This document shows, one piece after another, positions 32,600-45,980 of a stretch of 64,000 nt of DNA. The notes under the pieces were generated by a model that saw only the letters and a list, made by a program, of their open reading frames with translations, was not told where the DNA came from and did no database searches. The first letter of the stretch is position 1. Every line of letters starts with the position of its first letter. The translations under genes were made by a program, and so were the position numbers. The stretch comes from Gammaproteobacteria bacterium (GTDB taxonomy: Bacteria > Pseudomonadota > Gammaproteobacteria > SZUA-152): the NCBI GenBank assembly GCA_032250735.1, contig JAVVEP010000017.1, positions 1 through 64,000 on the forward strand, written 5' to 3'.

Positions 32600-33349
32600 T
32601 TAGACGGTCTTCTTACGACGGGAAAGACTGAATCCAATCAGACCCAGACCCATCAATGCAAGGGTGGCAGGTTCAGGGACAGAGGTAGGCTCAAGCTGTA
32701 TGGAGGTATCGATACGGAAGCTGGAGGCCGTACGATGGCGTTCCGCAAAGAACAGGTCAAACGAATAATTATTGCCGACCGTTAGGCCCAGAGTGTCGAG
32801 ATCAACCGAACCGGATATCGCACCGTGGACACCGCCCAAATCGACAACCAGCTGATCATTAATAAACACCCACAAATCATCATCGCCGGTGAAACTAAAA
32901 GATTCTCCACCCTGATAGGTGAAATTCGTGCCCAGCTCAAAGGTGAAATGATAGTTGTGCGTATTACCCTCATTGCCAAAGCCCAGTCCATCGATAGGGA
33001 AGAAACTGCCGTCCGTAAAGGTATAGACATTCAGATCAGGGGTAATCGTATTATCCAGGGAGATCGTGTGCGAAATCGACTGGTTGACACCAGCCACATT
33101 GTTATACCACTGGTCGAAGTTCTCGCCGGAGTTATAGACGCTGGATGTATTCAAACCACTGTAAACCGGTTTGCCATCAGCACCCAGGGTTGTTTCCACC
33201 ATGCCGGTAACGTGCCCGTCGATGGCACGCTCAAAATCGGAATGCGCCTGCTGGAAGTCACGCACGGTGCCGGTCAGGTTGATAATGCCGGCCTCGGCAG
33301 ACAACGATGTTGCCAGCAATAGTGGCATTAATAAGATGGTCTTTTTCAT
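32600..33349 (-). CDS. PEP-CTERM exported protein with fibro-slime domain
   Basis: The 249-residue protein starts with a signal peptide (KKTILLMPLLLATSLSAEA). The middle is a fibro-slime/PA14-like domain with the conserved ESFSFTGDDDLWVFINDQLVVDLGGVHG and YSFDLFFAERHRTASSFRID. It ends in the sorting tail VPEPATLALMGLGLIG followed by SRRKKTV. Exosortase would cleave at PEP and release it to the surface, often within an exopolysaccharide matrix. No exosortase gene is in the window. A sigma-54-type promoter lies 37 bases upstream, as for many PEP-CTERM genes under the PrsK-PrsR system. A terminator follows. Confidence 0.92.
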   Translation of the reverse strand: MKKTILLMPLLLATSLSAEAGIINLTGTVRDFQQAHSDFERAIDGHVTGMVETTLGADGKPVYSGLNTSSVYNSGENFDQWYNNVAGVNQSISHTISLDNTITPDLNVYTFTDGSFFPIDGLGFGNEGNTHNYHFTFELGTNFTYQGGESFSFTGDDDLWVFINDQLVVDLGGVHGAISGSVDLDTLGLTVGNNYSFDLFFAERHRTASSFRIDTSIQLEPTSVPEPATLALMGLGLIGFSLSRRKKTV

Positions 33350-33499: not shown

Positions 33500-34090
33500 T
33501 TACTGGGCTGCCTTGTCTCCCCATATTTCCTGCAGACGCTGATCACGGCCACAGCGCCAGCGATAATAGTTGTAGCGCACGGCACTGTTTTTATAGAAAT
33601 CCTGATGGTAGCTTTCCTCGCCCTTGATGGGATAAAAGGTGGCGGCATCCAAAACCGGGGTGACGACCTGCTGGTCGGGAAACTGCTCACGCACTTTCTG
33701 CCGGGAGGCCTCCGCCAGCCTTCGCTCCTGTGCCGTGGCGACAAATATTGCACTCAGGTAACTCGTACCCTTGTCGCAGAACTGGCCCTGCCCATCGAAG
33801 GGGTCGATGTGCAGCCAGTAATATTCCAGCAGCTTTTCATAACTGACGATGGCCGGATCGTAGCTGACTTCCACCGCTTCATAATGTCCCTGATGATTTC
33901 CGGTGTAGGTGGGATTTTCCAGCGTGCCGCCGGTAAAGCCGGACACCACATCTGTCACACCTTCGAGCTTTTCAAAATCGGCTTCCATACACCAGAAACA
34001 GCCACCGGCGAATATAGCCTTGTCCGCCATCGCCGCAGAGGCACATAACAGCAAGCCTATGGTTAGAACAAATATCGGTTTGAATTTCAT
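33500..34090 (-). CDS. msrA: Exported peptide-methionine (S)-S-oxide reductase
   Basis: The 196-residue protein has the MsrA active site GGCFWC (Cys31, with Cys34 next) right after a Sec signal peptide (FVLTIGLLLCASAAMA, cleavage near 22), so it repairs oxidised methionine in the periplasm. GYSGG-like VSGFTGGTLENPTYTGNHQGHYEAVEV and GQFCDKGTSYLSAIF are also present. The ATG at 34090 is chosen because GAGG stands eight bases before it; two further ATGs lie directly upstream. No MsrB domain is attached. It lies next to msrQ and msrP. Confidence 0.9.
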   Translation of the reverse strand: MKFKPIFVLTIGLLLCASAAMADKAIFAGGCFWCMEADFEKLEGVTDVVSGFTGGTLENPTYTGNHQGHYEAVEVSYDPAIVSYEKLLEYYWLHIDPFDGQGQFCDKGTSYLSAIFVATAQERRLAEASRQKVREQFPDQQVVTPVLDAATFYPIKGEESYHQDFYKNSAVRYNYYRWRCGRDQRLQEIWGDKAAQ

Positions 34091-34156
34091 CATCATATCC
34101 TCACACAACTACTGTTAATGTTTCAGCCCTGAAACAATGACAACAGGCCGATGATC

Positions 34157-34780
34157 TCAGGGAGTCTGGGAAACGGTTCGCTGACGCGACAGGGCCTGCC
34201 GCTGATAGCGGACGCGCACCAGCAGCAGGGCCAGCAGGATGGCGGCATGGATCAGCGGCAACAGGTAATCGGCCTTCACCAACCAGAAATAGTGCAGCAC
34301 GCCCAGCACCGCGATGACATAGACCAGTTGATGCAGCTGACCCCAGCGCCGGCCAAGGCGGCGCATCATCGCGTTGGTGGAGGTTACTGCCAGCGGTATC
34401 AGCAACACAAAGGCGGTGAAGCCGATGGTGATATAGGGACGTTTGATGATGTCCTTGAGAATCTCACCCCAGTCAAAAAACTGGTCTAACACGAAGTATG
34501 TCAACACATGCAGGCACGCATAAAAAAAACTGTACAGTCCCAGCATGCGCCGCACGCGTAGCGGCCAGCTCCAGCCGAACAGGCGACGGGCCGGGGTTGC
34601 CGCCAGGGTGATCAACAACAGGCGTAGTGTCCAGTCGCCGGTACGGTGGGTAATCTCCTCGATGGGATTGGCCCCGAGCTGATCGGTAAGGCCGTCCCAG
34701 ATACCCAGCGCCAGCGGCAGCAGGCAGGCGATAAACACCAGCGGCTTGATCAACACGGGTTTCAGCGTCGGTTGCATCAT
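34157..34780 (-). CDS. msrQ: Heme-binding membrane subunit MsrQ
   Basis: The 207-residue inner membrane protein has six hydrophobic segments and the YedZ pattern GDWTLRLLLITLAATPARRLFGW, with conserved His residues in YACLHVLTYF and LHQLVYVIAVLGVLHYFW that bind b-type heme. It feeds electrons from the respiratory chain to MsrP in the periplasm. Its start is 40 bases past the msrP stop codon on the same strand. A second start codon directly follows the first. Confidence 0.93.
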   Translation of the reverse strand: MMQPTLKPVLIKPLVFIACLLPLALGIWDGLTDQLGANPIEEITHRTGDWTLRLLLITLAATPARRLFGWSWPLRVRRMLGLYSFFYACLHVLTYFVLDQFFDWGEILKDIIKRPYITIGFTAFVLLIPLAVTSTNAMMRRLGRRWGQLHQLVYVIAVLGVLHYFWLVKADYLLPLIHAAILLALLLVRVRYQRQALSRQRTVSQTP

Positions 34781-34820
34781 CGACTTGCCGACATCCCATA
34801 ATGGACATCACCTGCTGACA

Positions 34821-35783
34821 TCAAAAATTCCGGCGCAGATCCATGCCTGCATACAGGCCGGCCACCTGCTCCTGATAGCTGTTAAACATCGCCGTCTTGC
34901 GTTTCAGAAATTCGCCGATGCGGCGCTCACGGTTCTGGCTCCAGCGCGGGTGATCCACCTCGGGGTTCACATTGGCGTAAAAGCCGTATTCACCCGGCCC
35001 GGCCAGATTCCAGGTGGTACTGGGCATGGTCTCGGTAAAGCGGATCCGGACGATGGACTTGATGCTTTTGAAGCCGTATTTCCACGGCACCACCAGGCGG
35101 ATCGGCGCCCCGTTCTGGTTGGGCAGAACCTTGCCGTACAGGCCGACGGCCAACAGCGTGAGCGGGTGCATGGCCTCGTCCATCCGCAGACCCTCGACAT
35201 AGGGCCAGTCCAGTACCGCGCGTTTCTGGCCCGGCATCTGCTGCGGATCGTGCAGCGTGGTGAATTCCACATAGCGGGCCTTTGAGGTGGGCTTGAGGCG
35301 TTTGATCAGGGTGCCCAACGGAATACCCACCCAGGGAATCACCATCGACCAGGCCTCCACGCAGCGCAGGCGATAGATGCGCTCCTCGAGCTGGCTCTCC
35401 CGGACCAGATCCTCCAGCTGATAGTCCGCGGGCTTTTCCACCTCGCCCTCCACGCGCACCGTCCAGGGATCGGTCTTCAGGCTGTGGGCGTGGCGGGCGG
35501 GGTCTTCCTTGCCGGTGCCAAATTCGTAGAAATTATTGTAACGGGTGATGTCCTTGAAGCTATTGGGCGACTCCTCTGTAGAAAACCCGGGGTTCTTGTT
35601 GACGTTCAGCAGTTCGACCCGGGCCGCCGCCTCGCGCGGCAGCATCAGACCTGGAAACGCAGCCCCTGCCGCCGCGGCCAGGGCCAGGCCGGAGCCGGTG
35701 CGCAAAAACGCCCGCCGCCCCTGATAAATCTGCTCATCGGTAATCTCGGAACTCTTGATATCGGCAGCGCGTCTGATCAGCAT
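34821..35783 (-). CDS. msrP: Periplasmic methionine-sulfoxide reductase, molybdenum subunit MsrP
   Basis: The 320-residue protein has a twin-arginine signal ([19 protein letters not shown]) and the molybdopterin ligand Cys141 in [17 protein letters not shown]. It reduces both R and S forms of protein-bound methionine sulfoxide in the periplasm. Length and motifs match YedY. It is upstream of msrQ in one leftward operon. Export must occur after cofactor loading through the Tat system, whose genes are elsewhere. Confidence 0.95.
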
Positions 35784-35975: not shown

Positions 35976-36464
35976 ATGTCAACCCGCCTGCCCCTGCTTT
36001 TGGTTCTGCTCCTGTGTGGTTTTACGTCCCCCACTTTTGGCGCCGAGCCCGCCCCCGACTTTACCCTGCCCACCTTTCCCGATGACGCCGGCATCAGCCT
36101 GCACGATCTCAAGGGGCGGGTGGTGTACCTGGATTTCTGGGCCACCTGGTGCCCGCCCTGCCGCAAGTCCTTTCCCTGGATGGATGAGATGCATGCGCGT
36201 TACAAGGACGAGGGCCTCACCATCATCGCCGTCAGCGTGGACAAGAAACGCGAGCTCATCGAAGAGTTTATCAACCAGCGACAACCTGCCTTCACGGTGG
36301 CGCATGACCCTAGCGGAGAGATTGCCAAGGCCTATCGTCTACGCGGCATGCCCAGCTCCTATCTGATCGACCGCAACGGCCTGCTGGTCAAAACCCACCT
36401 GGGTTTCCGCGATAAGGACAAGGCCACAATGGAAGCCGCCATCCAGGCCTTGCTGAAAAAATAG
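35976..36464 (+). CDS. Exported TlpA/ResA-like thioredoxin
   Basis: The 162-residue protein has a signal peptide (RLPLLLVLLLCGFTSPTFGA) and a thioredoxin fold with FWATWCPPCRKSFPW (Cys59 and Cys62), then RGMPSSYLIDRNG with the cis-Pro. CPPC is usual in periplasmic reductases that keep thiols reduced, for example in cytochrome c maturation. The ATG at 35976 gives a proper signal peptide; a longer frame from 35913 would not. It starts an operon with a DUF4266 lipoprotein, a DUF3570 protein and ApbE. Confidence 0.88.
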   Translation: MSTRLPLLLVLLLCGFTSPTFGAEPAPDFTLPTFPDDAGISLHDLKGRVVYLDFWATWCPPCRKSFPWMDEMHARYKDEGLTIIAVSVDKKRELIEEFINQRQPAFTVAHDPSGEIAKAYRLRGMPSSYLIDRNGLLVKTHLGFRDKDKATMEAAIQALLKK

Positions 36465-36499
36465 TCCGCCAATAACCCTTGCTCACGAGACCGACAAAC

Positions 36500-36718
36500 A
36501 TGATAAAGACCTTTCTCCTGGCCGCAGGCATTGGCGCCAGCCTGAGCGCCTGCAGTCTTGAACCGGTGCAACCCTGGGATCGGGACATCCTGGCCCAGCA
36601 AAAAATGCAACTGGTAGCCGACCCGCTGGAAACCTACCTCGATGAACATATCTATTTTAGCAAGGAGGCCTCCAGCGGCGGCCAGGGCGTGGGCGGAGGG
36701 GGCTGCGGATGCAACTGA
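36500..36718 (+). CDS. DUF4266 lipoprotein with Gly/Cys tail
   Basis: The 72-residue protein has a lipobox (SLSACS, lipidated Cys18), so it is membrane-anchored in the periplasm. The middle has the DUF4266 sequence VQPWDRDILAQQKMQL and YLDEHIYFSKEA. The end is rich in Gly and finishes GGGGCGCN, with Cys69 and Cys71. Such a CxC could bind metal or form a disulfide with the TlpA-like protein encoded 36 bases upstream. It overlaps the DUF3570 start by 10 bases. Function unknown. Confidence 0.85.
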   Translation: MIKTFLLAAGIGASLSACSLEPVQPWDRDILAQQKMQLVADPLETYLDEHIYFSKEASSGGQGVGGGGCGCN

Positions 36719-38049
36719 AAAAATCGCACAACACACCACGTAACATCCGCCGACAACTGGCCGCGGCCACCTGTGGCCTACTGGCCGGTGCCGGCCATGC
36801 CGGGGGACTGGTGGCGTCCGGCAACAACTGGAAAATCGATTCCGCGCTATTGATCTATGCCGAGAAGGACCGCGTGGCGCTGGTCGAGCCGGTACTGAGT
36901 CTGAGCAAGGAGATTGATGACGACGAATTCATCAATGTCCGTATCGTCGCCGACGTGCTGACCGGGGCCTCGCCCAATGGCGCGGTGCCGGCCGACACGC
37001 CGCAGACCTTTACCACCCCATCGGGCAAGTCGACCTATACCGAGGCCGCCAACACCACGCCGCTGGACGACACCTTCAAAGACTCCCGCGGCGCGCTCAA
37101 TGTGGAATGGGATACCCCCCTGGGCAACAACCTGCGCGGCACCTTCGGCGGCAATTTTTCCAACGAACACGACTACCTGTCCACCGGGTTCTCCGCGAAC
37201 TTCGCCCAGGACATCAACCAGCGCCATACCACCCTGGCGCTCGGTCTCTCCTTCAACAATGACACCGTCAGCCCGGAGGGCGGCGTGCCCGTCGGCCTGA
37301 CGGTGATGCCGGTCTATCCCGGCGTGAAGGCCACCGATGGCAGCAAGCAGGACAAAACCGTCAAAGAGGTGCTATTTGGCGTTACGCAGATCATTGACCG
37401 CAGCAGCCTGATGCAGCTGAACTACAGCCGCGGCCAGAGTGACGGCTATCTCACCGACCCGTACAAGATTCTCAGCGTGCTGGAAGACGACGGCACTGGC
37501 AATCTGCGCGGCACCACGCCTTATGTTTATGAGAGCCGACCGGATCAACGCAACTATCAGATCCTTTTCTGGAAGGGTGTGCATCAGCTCCCCAACGAGA
37601 ACGTGCTCAATCTCTCGTATCGCTATTTCTGGGATGACTGGGGCATCCAGTCACACACCGTCGACCTGCGCTACCGTTTCGACTTCGCCGGCGGCCACTA
37701 TCTACAGCCCCATCTGCGCTATTACCAGCAGGCGCAGGCGGACTTTTATCGCCAGACACTCATCGATGGTGAGGAGACCACTCTCGCCTACGCCAGTGCC
37801 GATTATCGGCTGGGTGAATTCACCACCCAGACCATCGGCGTAAAATACGGTTATCAGTTCCACAACGGCGCCGAGCTGAATCTGCGGGTGGAGATGATCG
37901 AGCAGAACGGCAAAGACCGCAGCGCGGATGCCATCGGCAAACTACAGAATCAGCAGCTGTTCCCGGATAACGAGGCCTACCTGCTACAGGCCGGCGTGTC
38001 GCTGGATTCCGACATGATCATCAACTACGTGCTGGGGCTGTTCAAATAG
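36709..38049 (+). CDS. DUF3570 outer-membrane-barrel-like protein with flavinylation-like site
   Basis: The 446-residue protein has a signal region (RRQLAAATCGLLAGAGHAGG) and a long run of alternating strands (residues 100-446) such as YRYFWDDWGIQSHTVDLRY and HYLQPHLRYYQQ, suggesting an outer membrane barrel. Near the start it reads VADVLTGASPNGA. D82-x-x-T85-G-A-S88 matches the motif at which ApbE attaches FMN to threonine, and apbE follows nine bases downstream. Flavinylation is inference, not shown for this protein. It overlaps the DUF4266 stop codon. Confidence 0.85.
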   Translation: MQLKKSHNTPRNIRRQLAAATCGLLAGAGHAGGLVASGNNWKIDSALLIYAEKDRVALVEPVLSLSKEIDDDEFINVRIVADVLTGASPNGAVPADTPQTFTTPSGKSTYTEAANTTPLDDTFKDSRGALNVEWDTPLGNNLRGTFGGNFSNEHDYLSTGFSANFAQDINQRHTTLALGLSFNNDTVSPEGGVPVGLTVMPVYPGVKATDGSKQDKTVKEVLFGVTQIIDRSSLMQLNYSRGQSDGYLTDPYKILSVLEDDGTGNLRGTTPYVYESRPDQRNYQILFWKGVHQLPNENVLNLSYRYFWDDWGIQSHTVDLRYRFDFAGGHYLQPHLRYYQQAQADFYRQTLIDGEETTLAYASADYRLGEFTTQTIGVKYGYQFHNGAELNLRVEMIEQNGKDRSADAIGKLQNQQLFPDNEAYLLQAGVSLDSDMIINYVLGLFK

Positions 38050-38057
38050 AAAAGGCT

Positions 38058-38963
38058 ATGGTTAGCCTCGAGCGCAGGGCCGATTATTTTGTGGGTCGTT
38101 TCGAGGCCATGGCCAGCCACTGTGAGGTGCTGGTGGATACCCGCAGTGAATCGCTGGCCCGGGAGATCACCCGGCTGGCGGCGGATGAGGTCACGCGCAT
38201 TGAACACAAATACAGTCGCTATCGTGACGACAATATTCTGCACCACATCAACAGCGGCGCACCCACCCGGGTCGATGCCGAAACCGCCCGCCTGCTGGAC
38301 TACGCACAACAGCTCTATCAATTAAGTGACGGACTGTTTGATATCAGCTCCGGGGTGTTGCGGCGGGTCTGGCGGTTTGACGGCAGCGACCGGCTGCCCG
38401 ATGCTGCCGAGGTCGAGGCCCTGTTGCCGCTGGTGGGCTGGGACAAGGTGATGTGGCAGGCGCCGCTGATCCAGCTGGCGCCGGGCATGGAAATCGATTT
38501 CGGTGGCATTGGCAAGGAATATGCGGCCGATCGTGTCGCGCAGCTGGCCTCGGCATTTCCCCTTCCGCAGCACACCCAGCCCGGCCACACCCCTTCCGTA
38601 CTGGTGAATCTGGGCGGCGATCTTGCCGTTACCGGACCGCGCCATGATGGTTCAGGCTGGCGGGTGGGCATCGAGACGGGAGCGACCGGCGCCAATGCAA
38701 AGGCGGCGGACTTTTCACTGCAGCAAGGCGGCGTGGCCACCAGCGGCGACGCCAAGCGCTATCTGCAAAAAGACGGCCGACGCTATAGCCACGTACTGGA
38801 CCCCCGCAGCGGCTGGCCGGTAAGCGGCGCACCCCATGCGGTCACCGTGGCCGCCGCCACCTGCACCGATGCGGGCATGCTCAGCACCCTTGCCCTGTTG
38901 CAGGGCGCGGGTGCCGAGGCGTTTCTGCGCGAACAGGATGTGCCGTACTGGTGCCAGTGGTGA
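38058..38963 (+). CDS. apbE: FAD:protein FMN transferase
   Basis: The 301-residue ApbE-family enzyme transfers FMN from FAD to a threonine or serine in target proteins. Motifs present are MEIDFGGIGKEYAADR, VLVNLGGDLAVTG, YSHVLDPRSGWPV and the metal-binding TCTDAGMLST. Unlike most members it shows no signal peptide or lipobox: it starts MVSLERRADYFVGRF. It may work in the cytoplasm or be exported some other way. The neighbouring DUF3570 protein has an ApbE-like target motif, which makes it the obvious substrate. Confidence 0.92.
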   Translation: MVSLERRADYFVGRFEAMASHCEVLVDTRSESLAREITRLAADEVTRIEHKYSRYRDDNILHHINSGAPTRVDAETARLLDYAQQLYQLSDGLFDISSGVLRRVWRFDGSDRLPDAAEVEALLPLVGWDKVMWQAPLIQLAPGMEIDFGGIGKEYAADRVAQLASAFPLPQHTQPGHTPSVLVNLGGDLAVTGPRHDGSGWRVGIETGATGANAKAADFSLQQGGVATSGDAKRYLQKDGRRYSHVLDPRSGWPVSGAPHAVTVAAATCTDAGMLSTLALLQGAGAEAFLREQDVPYWCQW

Positions 38964-44744: not shown

Positions 44745-45980
44745 CTAGCGGGATACGGCAAACGGGCGTCTAGAAGCCAGCCTGAAAACGGTCAATGCGC
44801 CGGTGTCATCCCGCACATACAGGGTATCCGCCACCGCCAGTGGGGGAACGGTGACGCTGCGACGGCGCTCATCCTGTTCTTCGTCTTCCCACACATGATT
44901 CAATTTTCCCCAGCTGACCGCGAGATTATTGCGCGCGATAAATTGTCCGTCATCGCGCGATAACCAGTGCATAAACCCGTCAAAATCCGCCACTACGACG
45001 CTATCGCCGACCACTGCGGGGGCGCTGAGCTCGCGTCCCTGCAGATTGTCCTGCCGCCACAGGGTCGCACCGGTACGGCCGTCGAGCGCCCACACCTTGC
45101 TCTGCGCATCGGTCACAAACACCTGACCCACGCCAACCGCAAGCCCTGTATAGGATGACATGTCACGCGCCCACACCACGTTGCCGTTTACCACGGAGAT
45201 GGCCGCCACGCGCCCCTGAAAACTGCTGACATAGACGATGCCATCTTCGACCTGAAACAGGCCATCGATATCCACCAGGCGCTCCAGGTCGGTGCGACCA
45301 TGGGGGGTCGCGATGGTGGCCTCCCACAATAGTTCGCCATCGGTCAGGCGGAGGGCAACCAGACGCCCATCCGAAAAACCGGCGAGGATCTTGTCGTCAA
45401 CCACCAGCGGCGCACTGGTGCCACGCAGGGTCAGGTTTGGAATCGAGCGTGCGTAGACCCAGAGCCTGTTGCCGGTCGCGACATCATGCACGCTGATCTT
45501 GCCATCAATGGTCTGCACCACCACCTGCTCATTGGCAACCACGGGGGCGGCAAGCATTTCGCTGCTGATACGCTGACGCCATTGTTCCGCACCGGTCTCC
45601 TTGTCCAGCGCCACCAGCTCCGCCTTGCGGGTCGCGACAAACAGATGTCGGGCGCCAATACCCGGACCGCCGGCAAGCGCCTCACCCAGATTCACACGCC
45701 AAAGCCGTTTTCCCTTATGCCCGTCCAATGCGGAAACACCGCCGTCTCTGTCGGCGAGGTACACCCGCTCGCCATCAACCTTGACGGGCAATTGTGCGTG
45801 CGCCGAGGGGGGGACATCACCGGTCTGCACCGCCCACAGCGGGGTCACTGCCAGTCGCGTGTCGATACTCGCCAGTGGCGTGGCATTGGAATAGTCTTTC
45901 TGCGAGGAACCGCAGGCCGTGAGCAGGCCGCCTGCGAGCAACGCCGATAACACCACGATGCGTTTGAGCACGACATTCAT
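44745..45980 (-). CDS. bamB: Outer membrane assembly lipoprotein BamB
   Basis: The 411-residue lipoprotein belongs to the BAM complex that inserts outer membrane proteins. It has a lipobox (GLLTACGS, Cys23) and an eight-bladed PQQ-type propeller with repeats such as VSALDGHKGKRLWRVNLGEAL and VVADFDGFMHWLSRDDG. It sits between yfgM and der, its usual place. Its start is 2 bases after the yfgM stop codon, so the two are probably translationally coupled. Confidence 0.96.
   Translation of the reverse strand: MNVVLKRIVVLSALLAGGLLTACGSSQKDYSNATPLASIDTRLAVTPLWAVQTGDVPPSAHAQLPVKVDGERVYLADRDGGVSALDGHKGKRLWRVNLGEALAGGPGIGARHLFVATRKAELVALDKETGAEQWRQRISSEMLAAPVVANEQVVVQTIDGKISVHDVATGNRLWVYARSIPNLTLRGTSAPLVVDDKILAGFSDGRLVALRLTDGELLWEATIATPHGRTDLERLVDIDGLFQVEDGIVYVSSFQGRVAAISVVNGNVVWARDMSSYTGLAVGVGQVFVTDAQSKVWALDGRTGATLWRQDNLQGRELSAPAVVGDSVVVADFDGFMHWLSRDDGQFIARNNLAVSWGKLNHVWEDEEQDERRRSVTVPPLAVADTLYVRDDTGALTVFRLASRRPFAVSR

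Follow-up and report, generated by a model that had tools for sequence, protein, structure and literature searches.

The window analysed here, a stretch of DNA of 64,000 nucleotides, contains an operon in which a predicted outer-membrane β-barrel of the DUF3570 family carries a flavinylation motif and is encoded beside an ApbE flavin transferase that has no export signal. Because this ApbE is leaderless, flavin attachment probably takes place in the cytosol, ahead of export of the barrel. DUF3570 flavinylation and an outline of the system have already been published (PMC8238504), and we infer that the new elements are the leaderless ApbE class and an outward-facing flavin. An earlier note on this DNA had proposed that the four genes make a flavinylated envelope redox system. 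That core inference was right, as the four-gene unit is conserved and DUF3570 of Chlorobium luteolum is flavinylated, but it was not new because it had been published (PMC8238504). The same note overlooked the missing export signal and the altered active site of ApbE.

A conserved four-gene unit

Genes for a TlpA-like protein, a DUF4266 protein, a DUF3570 protein and ApbE are consecutive on the same strand of the window (35979-38963, +), and all of the genes and features that had been claimed for this region, including the DUF4266 CGC and the D82 to S88 motif, were found. The first gene (35979..36464, +) encodes a TlpA/ResA-like periplasmic thioredoxin with a signal peptide and a WCPPC motif (Pfam Redoxin, 91 bits, and AhpC-TSA). 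It is followed by a small DUF4266 lipoprotein (36500..36718, +; PF14086, 79.8 bits) with the lipobox LSAC and the C-terminus GGGCGCN. The CGC codons (36704..36712, +), read from the sequence and kept in all relatives, specify a candidate redox dithiol. The DUF3570 gene (36709..38049, +; PF12094, 440 bits) encodes a predicted 16-stranded outer-membrane β-barrel with a cleavable signal peptide, and apbE (38058..38963, +; PF02424, 211.9 bits against a cut-off of 25.6) encodes an FMN transferase. As the DUF4266 and DUF3570 genes overlap by 10 bases, the start at 36500 given in the earlier note is correct; 8 bases separate the DUF3570 stop codon from the apbE ATG. Inspection of the sequences revealed no c-type heme CxxCH motif in any of the four proteins. 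Elsewhere in the window, a PEP-CTERM protein with a PA14 domain is encoded on the minus strand (32600-33349).

A genome scan with an alignment of nine DUF3570 sequences as the query yielded 80 gammaproteobacterial loci, with DUF4266 present in all 80, an upstream TlpA homologue in 71 and apbE in 64. Plasmid searches returned DUF3570 in three Vibrio records only. Plasmid NZ_CP045356.1 of Vibrio sp. THAF64 carries TlpA, DUF4266, DUF3570, leaderless ApbE and DsbD as an unbroken block (L306:3439-8229), and these five genes are without annotation in the plasmid gene table.

The flavinylation motif and its predicted acceptor

The pattern D-x-x-[ST]-G-A-[ST] occurs only twice in the 46,487 residues encoded by all six-frame ORFs of at least 60 amino acids in the window. 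One match is D82-V-L-T85-G86-A87-S88 of DUF3570 (36952..36972, +). The other, DGRTGAT at residue 300 of an ORF on the minus strand (44745-45980), may be due to chance. Among the 78 aligned DUF3570 relatives, no variation was seen at D82, L84, T85, G86 or A87 (78/78), and position 88 holds Ser in 70 and Thr in 8. The loci had been selected by means of a pattern at residues 118-127, so that conservation in that segment is partly a product of selection; the flavinylation motif lies outside it. Since it is the final motif residue that receives FMN (PMC12052999), the predicted acceptor is Ser88 and not Thr85, the residue favoured in the earlier note. It is very likely that DUF3570 carries FMN on Ser88. 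In this protein Pfam identified PF12094 alone, with no FMN_bind domain (PF04205, as in NqrC and RnfG) around the motif.

Experiments with the C. luteolum proteins showed that the cognate ApbE attaches flavin to DUF3570 at two [ST]GA[ST] sites (Meheust et al. 2021, PMC8238504). Other DUF3570 branches also contain a second SGA[ST] site (e.g. L019/L135, L021/L131 and L281), whereas the window branch has an invariant Pro-Ser-Gly at the aligned position (P104-S-G-K-S in the window protein; 37018..37032, +), which is not a site. One flavin per barrel would therefore be expected here, as opposed to two in Chlorobium. Double-length DUF3570 proteins of about 900 residues, containing DTWSGAT, are encoded in L016, L214, L224 and L226; three of them have a further [ST]GA[ST] match in a loop.

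We also identified a second DUF3570 lineage, comprising 50 proteins from related genomes, which has a short loop and retains the Asp, Ala and Ser/Thr of the motif. The Gly position of these proteins is occupied by Ser in 41, Gly in 6, Asn in 2 and Ala in 1, whereas it is Gly in all 58 of the other DUF3570 proteins. The motif was invariant in the ApbE-paired lineage, but drifted from Gly to Ser in the lineage without an adjacent E/G-type ApbE (the Glu154/Gly273 type described below). DUF4266 was nevertheless kept beside all 50 proteins of the second lineage and TlpA beside 48, and so it appears that the strict Gly tracks the leaderless ApbE and that the thiol partners track the barrel regardless. 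We rejected the description of the second lineage as ApbE-less, because an ApbE with a signal peptide is present in the fetched stretch of 4 of the 50 and lies 6-18 kb away in several others. The narrower statement is that no leaderless E/G-type ApbE lies alongside.

The genome of the window contains a member of the second lineage at C5:83588-84376 (L117). Clusters of this lineage include a hydrazine-synthase-alpha domain protein with CxxCH motifs as well as TPR and SH3 proteins, and in some of them there is an ApbE that has a signal peptide. On contig C5 (genome G000; L117:112-12002) the DUF3570 protein has TSAT in place of SGAS and is accompanied by an HZS_alpha protein with two CxxCH motifs, an SH3 protein, a small barrel, TlpA, DUF4266 and TPR proteins. 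Clusters of this type are conserved in many Gammaproteobacteria (with a signal-peptide ApbE in L247, L261, L266 and L269), and they look like a separate heme-plus-thiol outer-membrane system.

A leaderless ApbE with altered active-site residues

The window ApbE has neither a signal peptide nor a lipobox, and there is no in-frame start codon further upstream. No ApbE that is paired with motif-bearing DUF3570 has a leader, deep proteobacterial branches included; nearly all of the other ApbEs of those genomes do, with leaders called from the hydrophobic core and the lipobox pattern rather than with a trained predictor. The ApbEs of L156 and L157, which lie beside the second DUF3570 lineage, have no leader in the listed ORF.

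The catalytic set of Vibrio cholerae ApbE consists of Ser241, His257 and Asp285. Ser229 and His245 of the window protein correspond to the first two of these residues with exact spacing, and Gly273 (38874..38876, +) falls, by spacing from Ser241 and His257, at the position of Asp285. Thus, the window ApbE lacks the catalytic Asp and has Gly273 instead, together with Glu154 (38517..38519, +) in the same clade, where the leader-bearing ApbEs have Gly. In an alignment of 154 ApbEs, one row of which is a wrong-frame ORF, 121 have the combination of Glu154 and Gly273; in the leader-bearing group 30 have Gly and Asp, and 2 (L156 and L157) have Gly and Glu. The separation of the E/G from the G/D type corresponds to a single branch of the ApbE tree (76 sequences; support 100/98), and the solved ApbEs 1vrm, 5mgy, 6nxi and 7esa have Gly and Asp at the same two positions. 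Glu154 may replace the lost catalytic Asp. The canonical Asp is presumably also a magnesium ligand, close to the Glu154 segment.

The window enzyme shares its fold family and Ser229/His245 with the ApbEs of V. cholerae and Treponema pallidum and with Listeria monocytogenes FmnB (PF02424), but differs from them in having no leader or lipobox, Gly273 for Asp285 and Glu154 for Gly. Like the cytosolic ApbE of Klebsiella pneumoniae, which acts on a soluble fumarate reductase (PMC12052999), it has no signal peptide. However, the Klebsiella substrate stays in the cytosol, whereas the substrate here is predicted to be an exported outer-membrane barrel. Text searches of PMC8238504 (main text) revealed neither a barrel nor an ApbE described as leaderless or cytosolic. 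Neither the leaderless Glu/Gly ApbE class nor the DUF3570 barrel topology was described in the freely accessible journal papers searched, and both look new.

Association of the ApbE class with motif-bearing DUF3570 extends beyond gene adjacency. Sixteen of the 80 loci have no adjacent apbE, and a search of ten of the corresponding whole genomes revealed a leaderless E/G-type ApbE elsewhere in all ten. Among 398 Pseudomonadota genomes the class, defined by a score of at least 289 bits (next best, 193), was present in 23, and 18 of these 23 also encode a motif-bearing DUF3570 (Fisher p = 6e-24). In another three genomes with the motif, divergent class members score below 289 bits. The class was absent from the six genomes whose DUF3570 is of the second lineage alone, and five genomes contain the leaderless class with no DUF3570. 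In two genomes (L167:2101-4596 and L171:1173-3399) a second DUF3570 adjoins a leaderless ApbE, beside a gene product starting MKRRKFIKSMGALGATLAAPSVF, and the window-type DUF3570 occurs there without an adjacent apbE. We also observed small EF-hand proteins without a signal peptide, with WSGAS or MTGAS close to their N-terminus, beside leaderless Glu/Gly-type ApbEs (L204:1053-1454 and L205:1136-1471). These genomes lack DUF3570, and the EF-hand proteins are candidate new ApbE substrates.

A model of the DUF3570 barrel

An AlphaFold2 model of DUF3570 based on the 78-sequence alignment (pLDDT 89.3, pTM 0.86) contains sixteen strands (42-52, 56-70, 73-86, 123-139 and so on to 421-433). The Foldseek matches listed were all outer-membrane barrels (FadL, OmpG, Occ porins and TonB receptors) with TM-scores of about 0.4, which indicates the barrel class but no close match; a sequence search identified no solved relative of DUF3570. 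The even number of strands and the match to solved barrels, both taken from the predicted model, together with a signal peptide read by eye, are the features of an outer-membrane barrel, and DUF3570 is almost certainly a protein of this kind.

Short turns cluster at one end of the modelled barrel (71-72, 140-141, 170-173, 231-232, 294-298, 326-329 and 384-388), and the loops of the opposite end are mostly long. Ser88 lies at one end of strand 3, where the 87-122 loop begins. The N- and C-termini of outer-membrane barrels are usually periplasmic, which would place Ser88 at the outer end. With the orientation taken from this topology rule, the barrel FMN likely faces outward. Near-invariant residues are enriched in the presumed outer half (52/256 versus 11/136, p = 0.0014), although the mean residue entropy of the two halves did not differ significantly (p = 0.19).

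Thiol partners and the published system

In the published cluster, DUF3570 and ApbE are joined by DsbD, a protein resembling thioredoxin, and a DUF4266 protein that has CxC. The paper, the only one that a full-text search retrieved for either DUF, gives a described role to DUF3570 and DUF4266 (PMC8238504), for which the earlier note had known of no defined function. The window operon resembles that DsbD-type system in having the same gene families in one cluster, an apbE adjoining DUF3570, an [ST]GA[ST] site in DUF3570 and a C-terminal CxC in DUF4266. It differs in having one flavinylation site instead of two, a thioredoxin of the Redoxin/AhpC-TSA (TlpA/ResA-like) type instead of PF13899, and DsbD on another contig. 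The TlpA-like protein matched PF08534, PF00578, PF13905, PF00085 and PF13098, with PF13899 not among them, and its best NCBIfam profile was ResA-like, yet below the cut-off. PF13899 is found in 183 of the 285 published DsbD clusters and so is not strictly defining; as 316 such clusters have no DsbD (PMC8238504), the window operon belongs to a wider, DsbD-unlinked group. The sole DsbD_TM match of this genome is on contig C33, and DsbD adjoins the cluster in 17 of the 80 loci.

The DUF4266 tail GGGCGCN is kept in 79 of the 80 loci. Wherever the lipobox pattern was found, its +2 residue is Ser, Ala or Thr (Ser in the window protein), and DUF4266 is predicted to be anchored in the outer membrane. 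Reduction of the candidate CGC thiols by TlpA is plausible. A TlpA homologue is missing near some members, namely 8 loci and both of the family mates tested.

Proposed mechanism and alternative explanations

We propose that the co-encoded leaderless ApbE would flavinylate the unfolded DUF3570 precursor once, on Ser88, in the cytosol, where an ApbE without an export signal would be expected to work. The FMN-bearing chain would then be exported by Sec (SecYEG), lose its signal peptide and, by way of BAM, fold as a 16-stranded barrel which, according to the model and the topology rule, would hold FMN at its outer end. Flavinylation before folding fits two published observations: a DUF3570 substrate made without its signal peptide was recovered insoluble and still flavinylated (PMC8238504), and ApbE needs no more than a linear motif of seven residues (PMC12052999). 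On the thiol side, DsbD would reduce the TlpA-like protein, which in turn would reduce the CGC dithiol of DUF4266, a lipoprotein in the outer membrane, as has been proposed in part (PMC8238504). The glycine-rich DUF4266 tail would reach the barrel and pass electrons to FMN, from which they might continue to an acceptor outside the cell, for instance ferric iron, a step also proposed in part in that study. Attachment of FMN in the cytosol is probable, and we lean towards electrons running outward. As a whole, a heme-free thiol/flavin electron path through the outer membrane, with Ser88 flavinylated in the cytosol before export, is somewhat favoured. Its support comes from the conserved operon, the 78/78 motif, the pairing with leaderless ApbE, the E/G split, the barrel model and the Vibrio sp. 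THAF64 block. Against it, a single FMN at the outer rim would leave roughly one membrane thickness to be crossed, for which the DUF4266 tail is the only candidate bridge; the entropy result for the barrel halves, the presence of DsbD beside only 17 loci and the absence of TlpA near some members also count against it. More tentative is the full version, in which a distinct ApbE class (Glu154/Gly273, leaderless) flavinylates an outer-membrane protein in the cytosol, the cofactor-bearing chain is exported, and a lipoprotein dithiol feeds a surface FMN in a heme-free conduit; we consider this possible, at somewhat less than even odds.

Outer-membrane electron transfer has mostly been described with multiheme cytochromes. 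The proposed barrel would resemble porin-cytochrome conduits (MtrCAB) in passing electrons across the outer membrane, but with a predicted dithiol and FMN and no heme motif. If true, the thiol-to-flavin route would be a second solution, found in many marine Gammaproteobacteria. FMN attachment before export, if true, would sidestep the unsolved question of how FAD is supplied to periplasmic ApbE and would imply that a chain with a bulky cofactor can be handled by the export machinery. The swapped ApbE residues offer a handle for mutagenesis of ApbE catalysis and can serve as a sequence signature in annotation of the class.

Classical ApbEs are all periplasmic, and we considered that flavinylation might follow export, either because the leaderless ApbE is itself carried out of the cytosol by some other route or because the lipoprotein ApbE of this genome (contig C4) modifies DUF3570 and the leaderless enzyme serves a cytosolic protein. 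The five genomes with the leaderless class but no DUF3570 would fit this reading. However, the leaderless class and motif-bearing DUF3570 occur together across genomes, also where their genes are unlinked, and the lipoprotein ApbE can be accounted for by an FMN_bind (Rnf/Nqr-type) protein encoded on contig C21; flavinylation after export is thus unlikely. Electrons might also flow in reverse, with the barrel FMN oxidising the DUF4266 dithiol and TlpA in a flavin thiol oxidase or outer-membrane disulfide system. Gene order leaves the direction unfixed, and sulfhydryl oxidases share the arrangement of a dithiol next to a flavin. As the partners are TlpA/ResA-type reductants, and as DsbD, an outward electron donor, adjoins 17 of the 80 loci and is part of the Vibrio cluster, we give reverse flow a low probability.

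We judge it about equally improbable that the main role of the barrel is that of a channel for a metal or small molecule, with the flavin serving in gating or cargo chemistry. Its nearest folds are the FadL, OmpG and Occ channels, and a VIT1 iron transporter occurs in 25 published clusters (PMC8238504), but a conserved thiol chain is unusual for a porin. Within the clusters examined, the redox partners alone proved constant, in a search that did not target transporters.

MsrA (PMSR), MsrQ (Ferric_reduct) and MsrP (Oxidored_molyb) are encoded divergently just upstream of the operon on the minus strand (33500-35783), and one genus mate retains msrPQ, which might suggest that the unit serves methionine-sulfoxide repair. 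This is very improbable, since MsrP and MsrQ lie beside none of the 80 relatives and MsrA beside only 5, and the msr genes are absent from two family mates; a general link to msrA, msrQ and msrP was rejected on these counts. The MsrA of the window has an apparent signal peptide.
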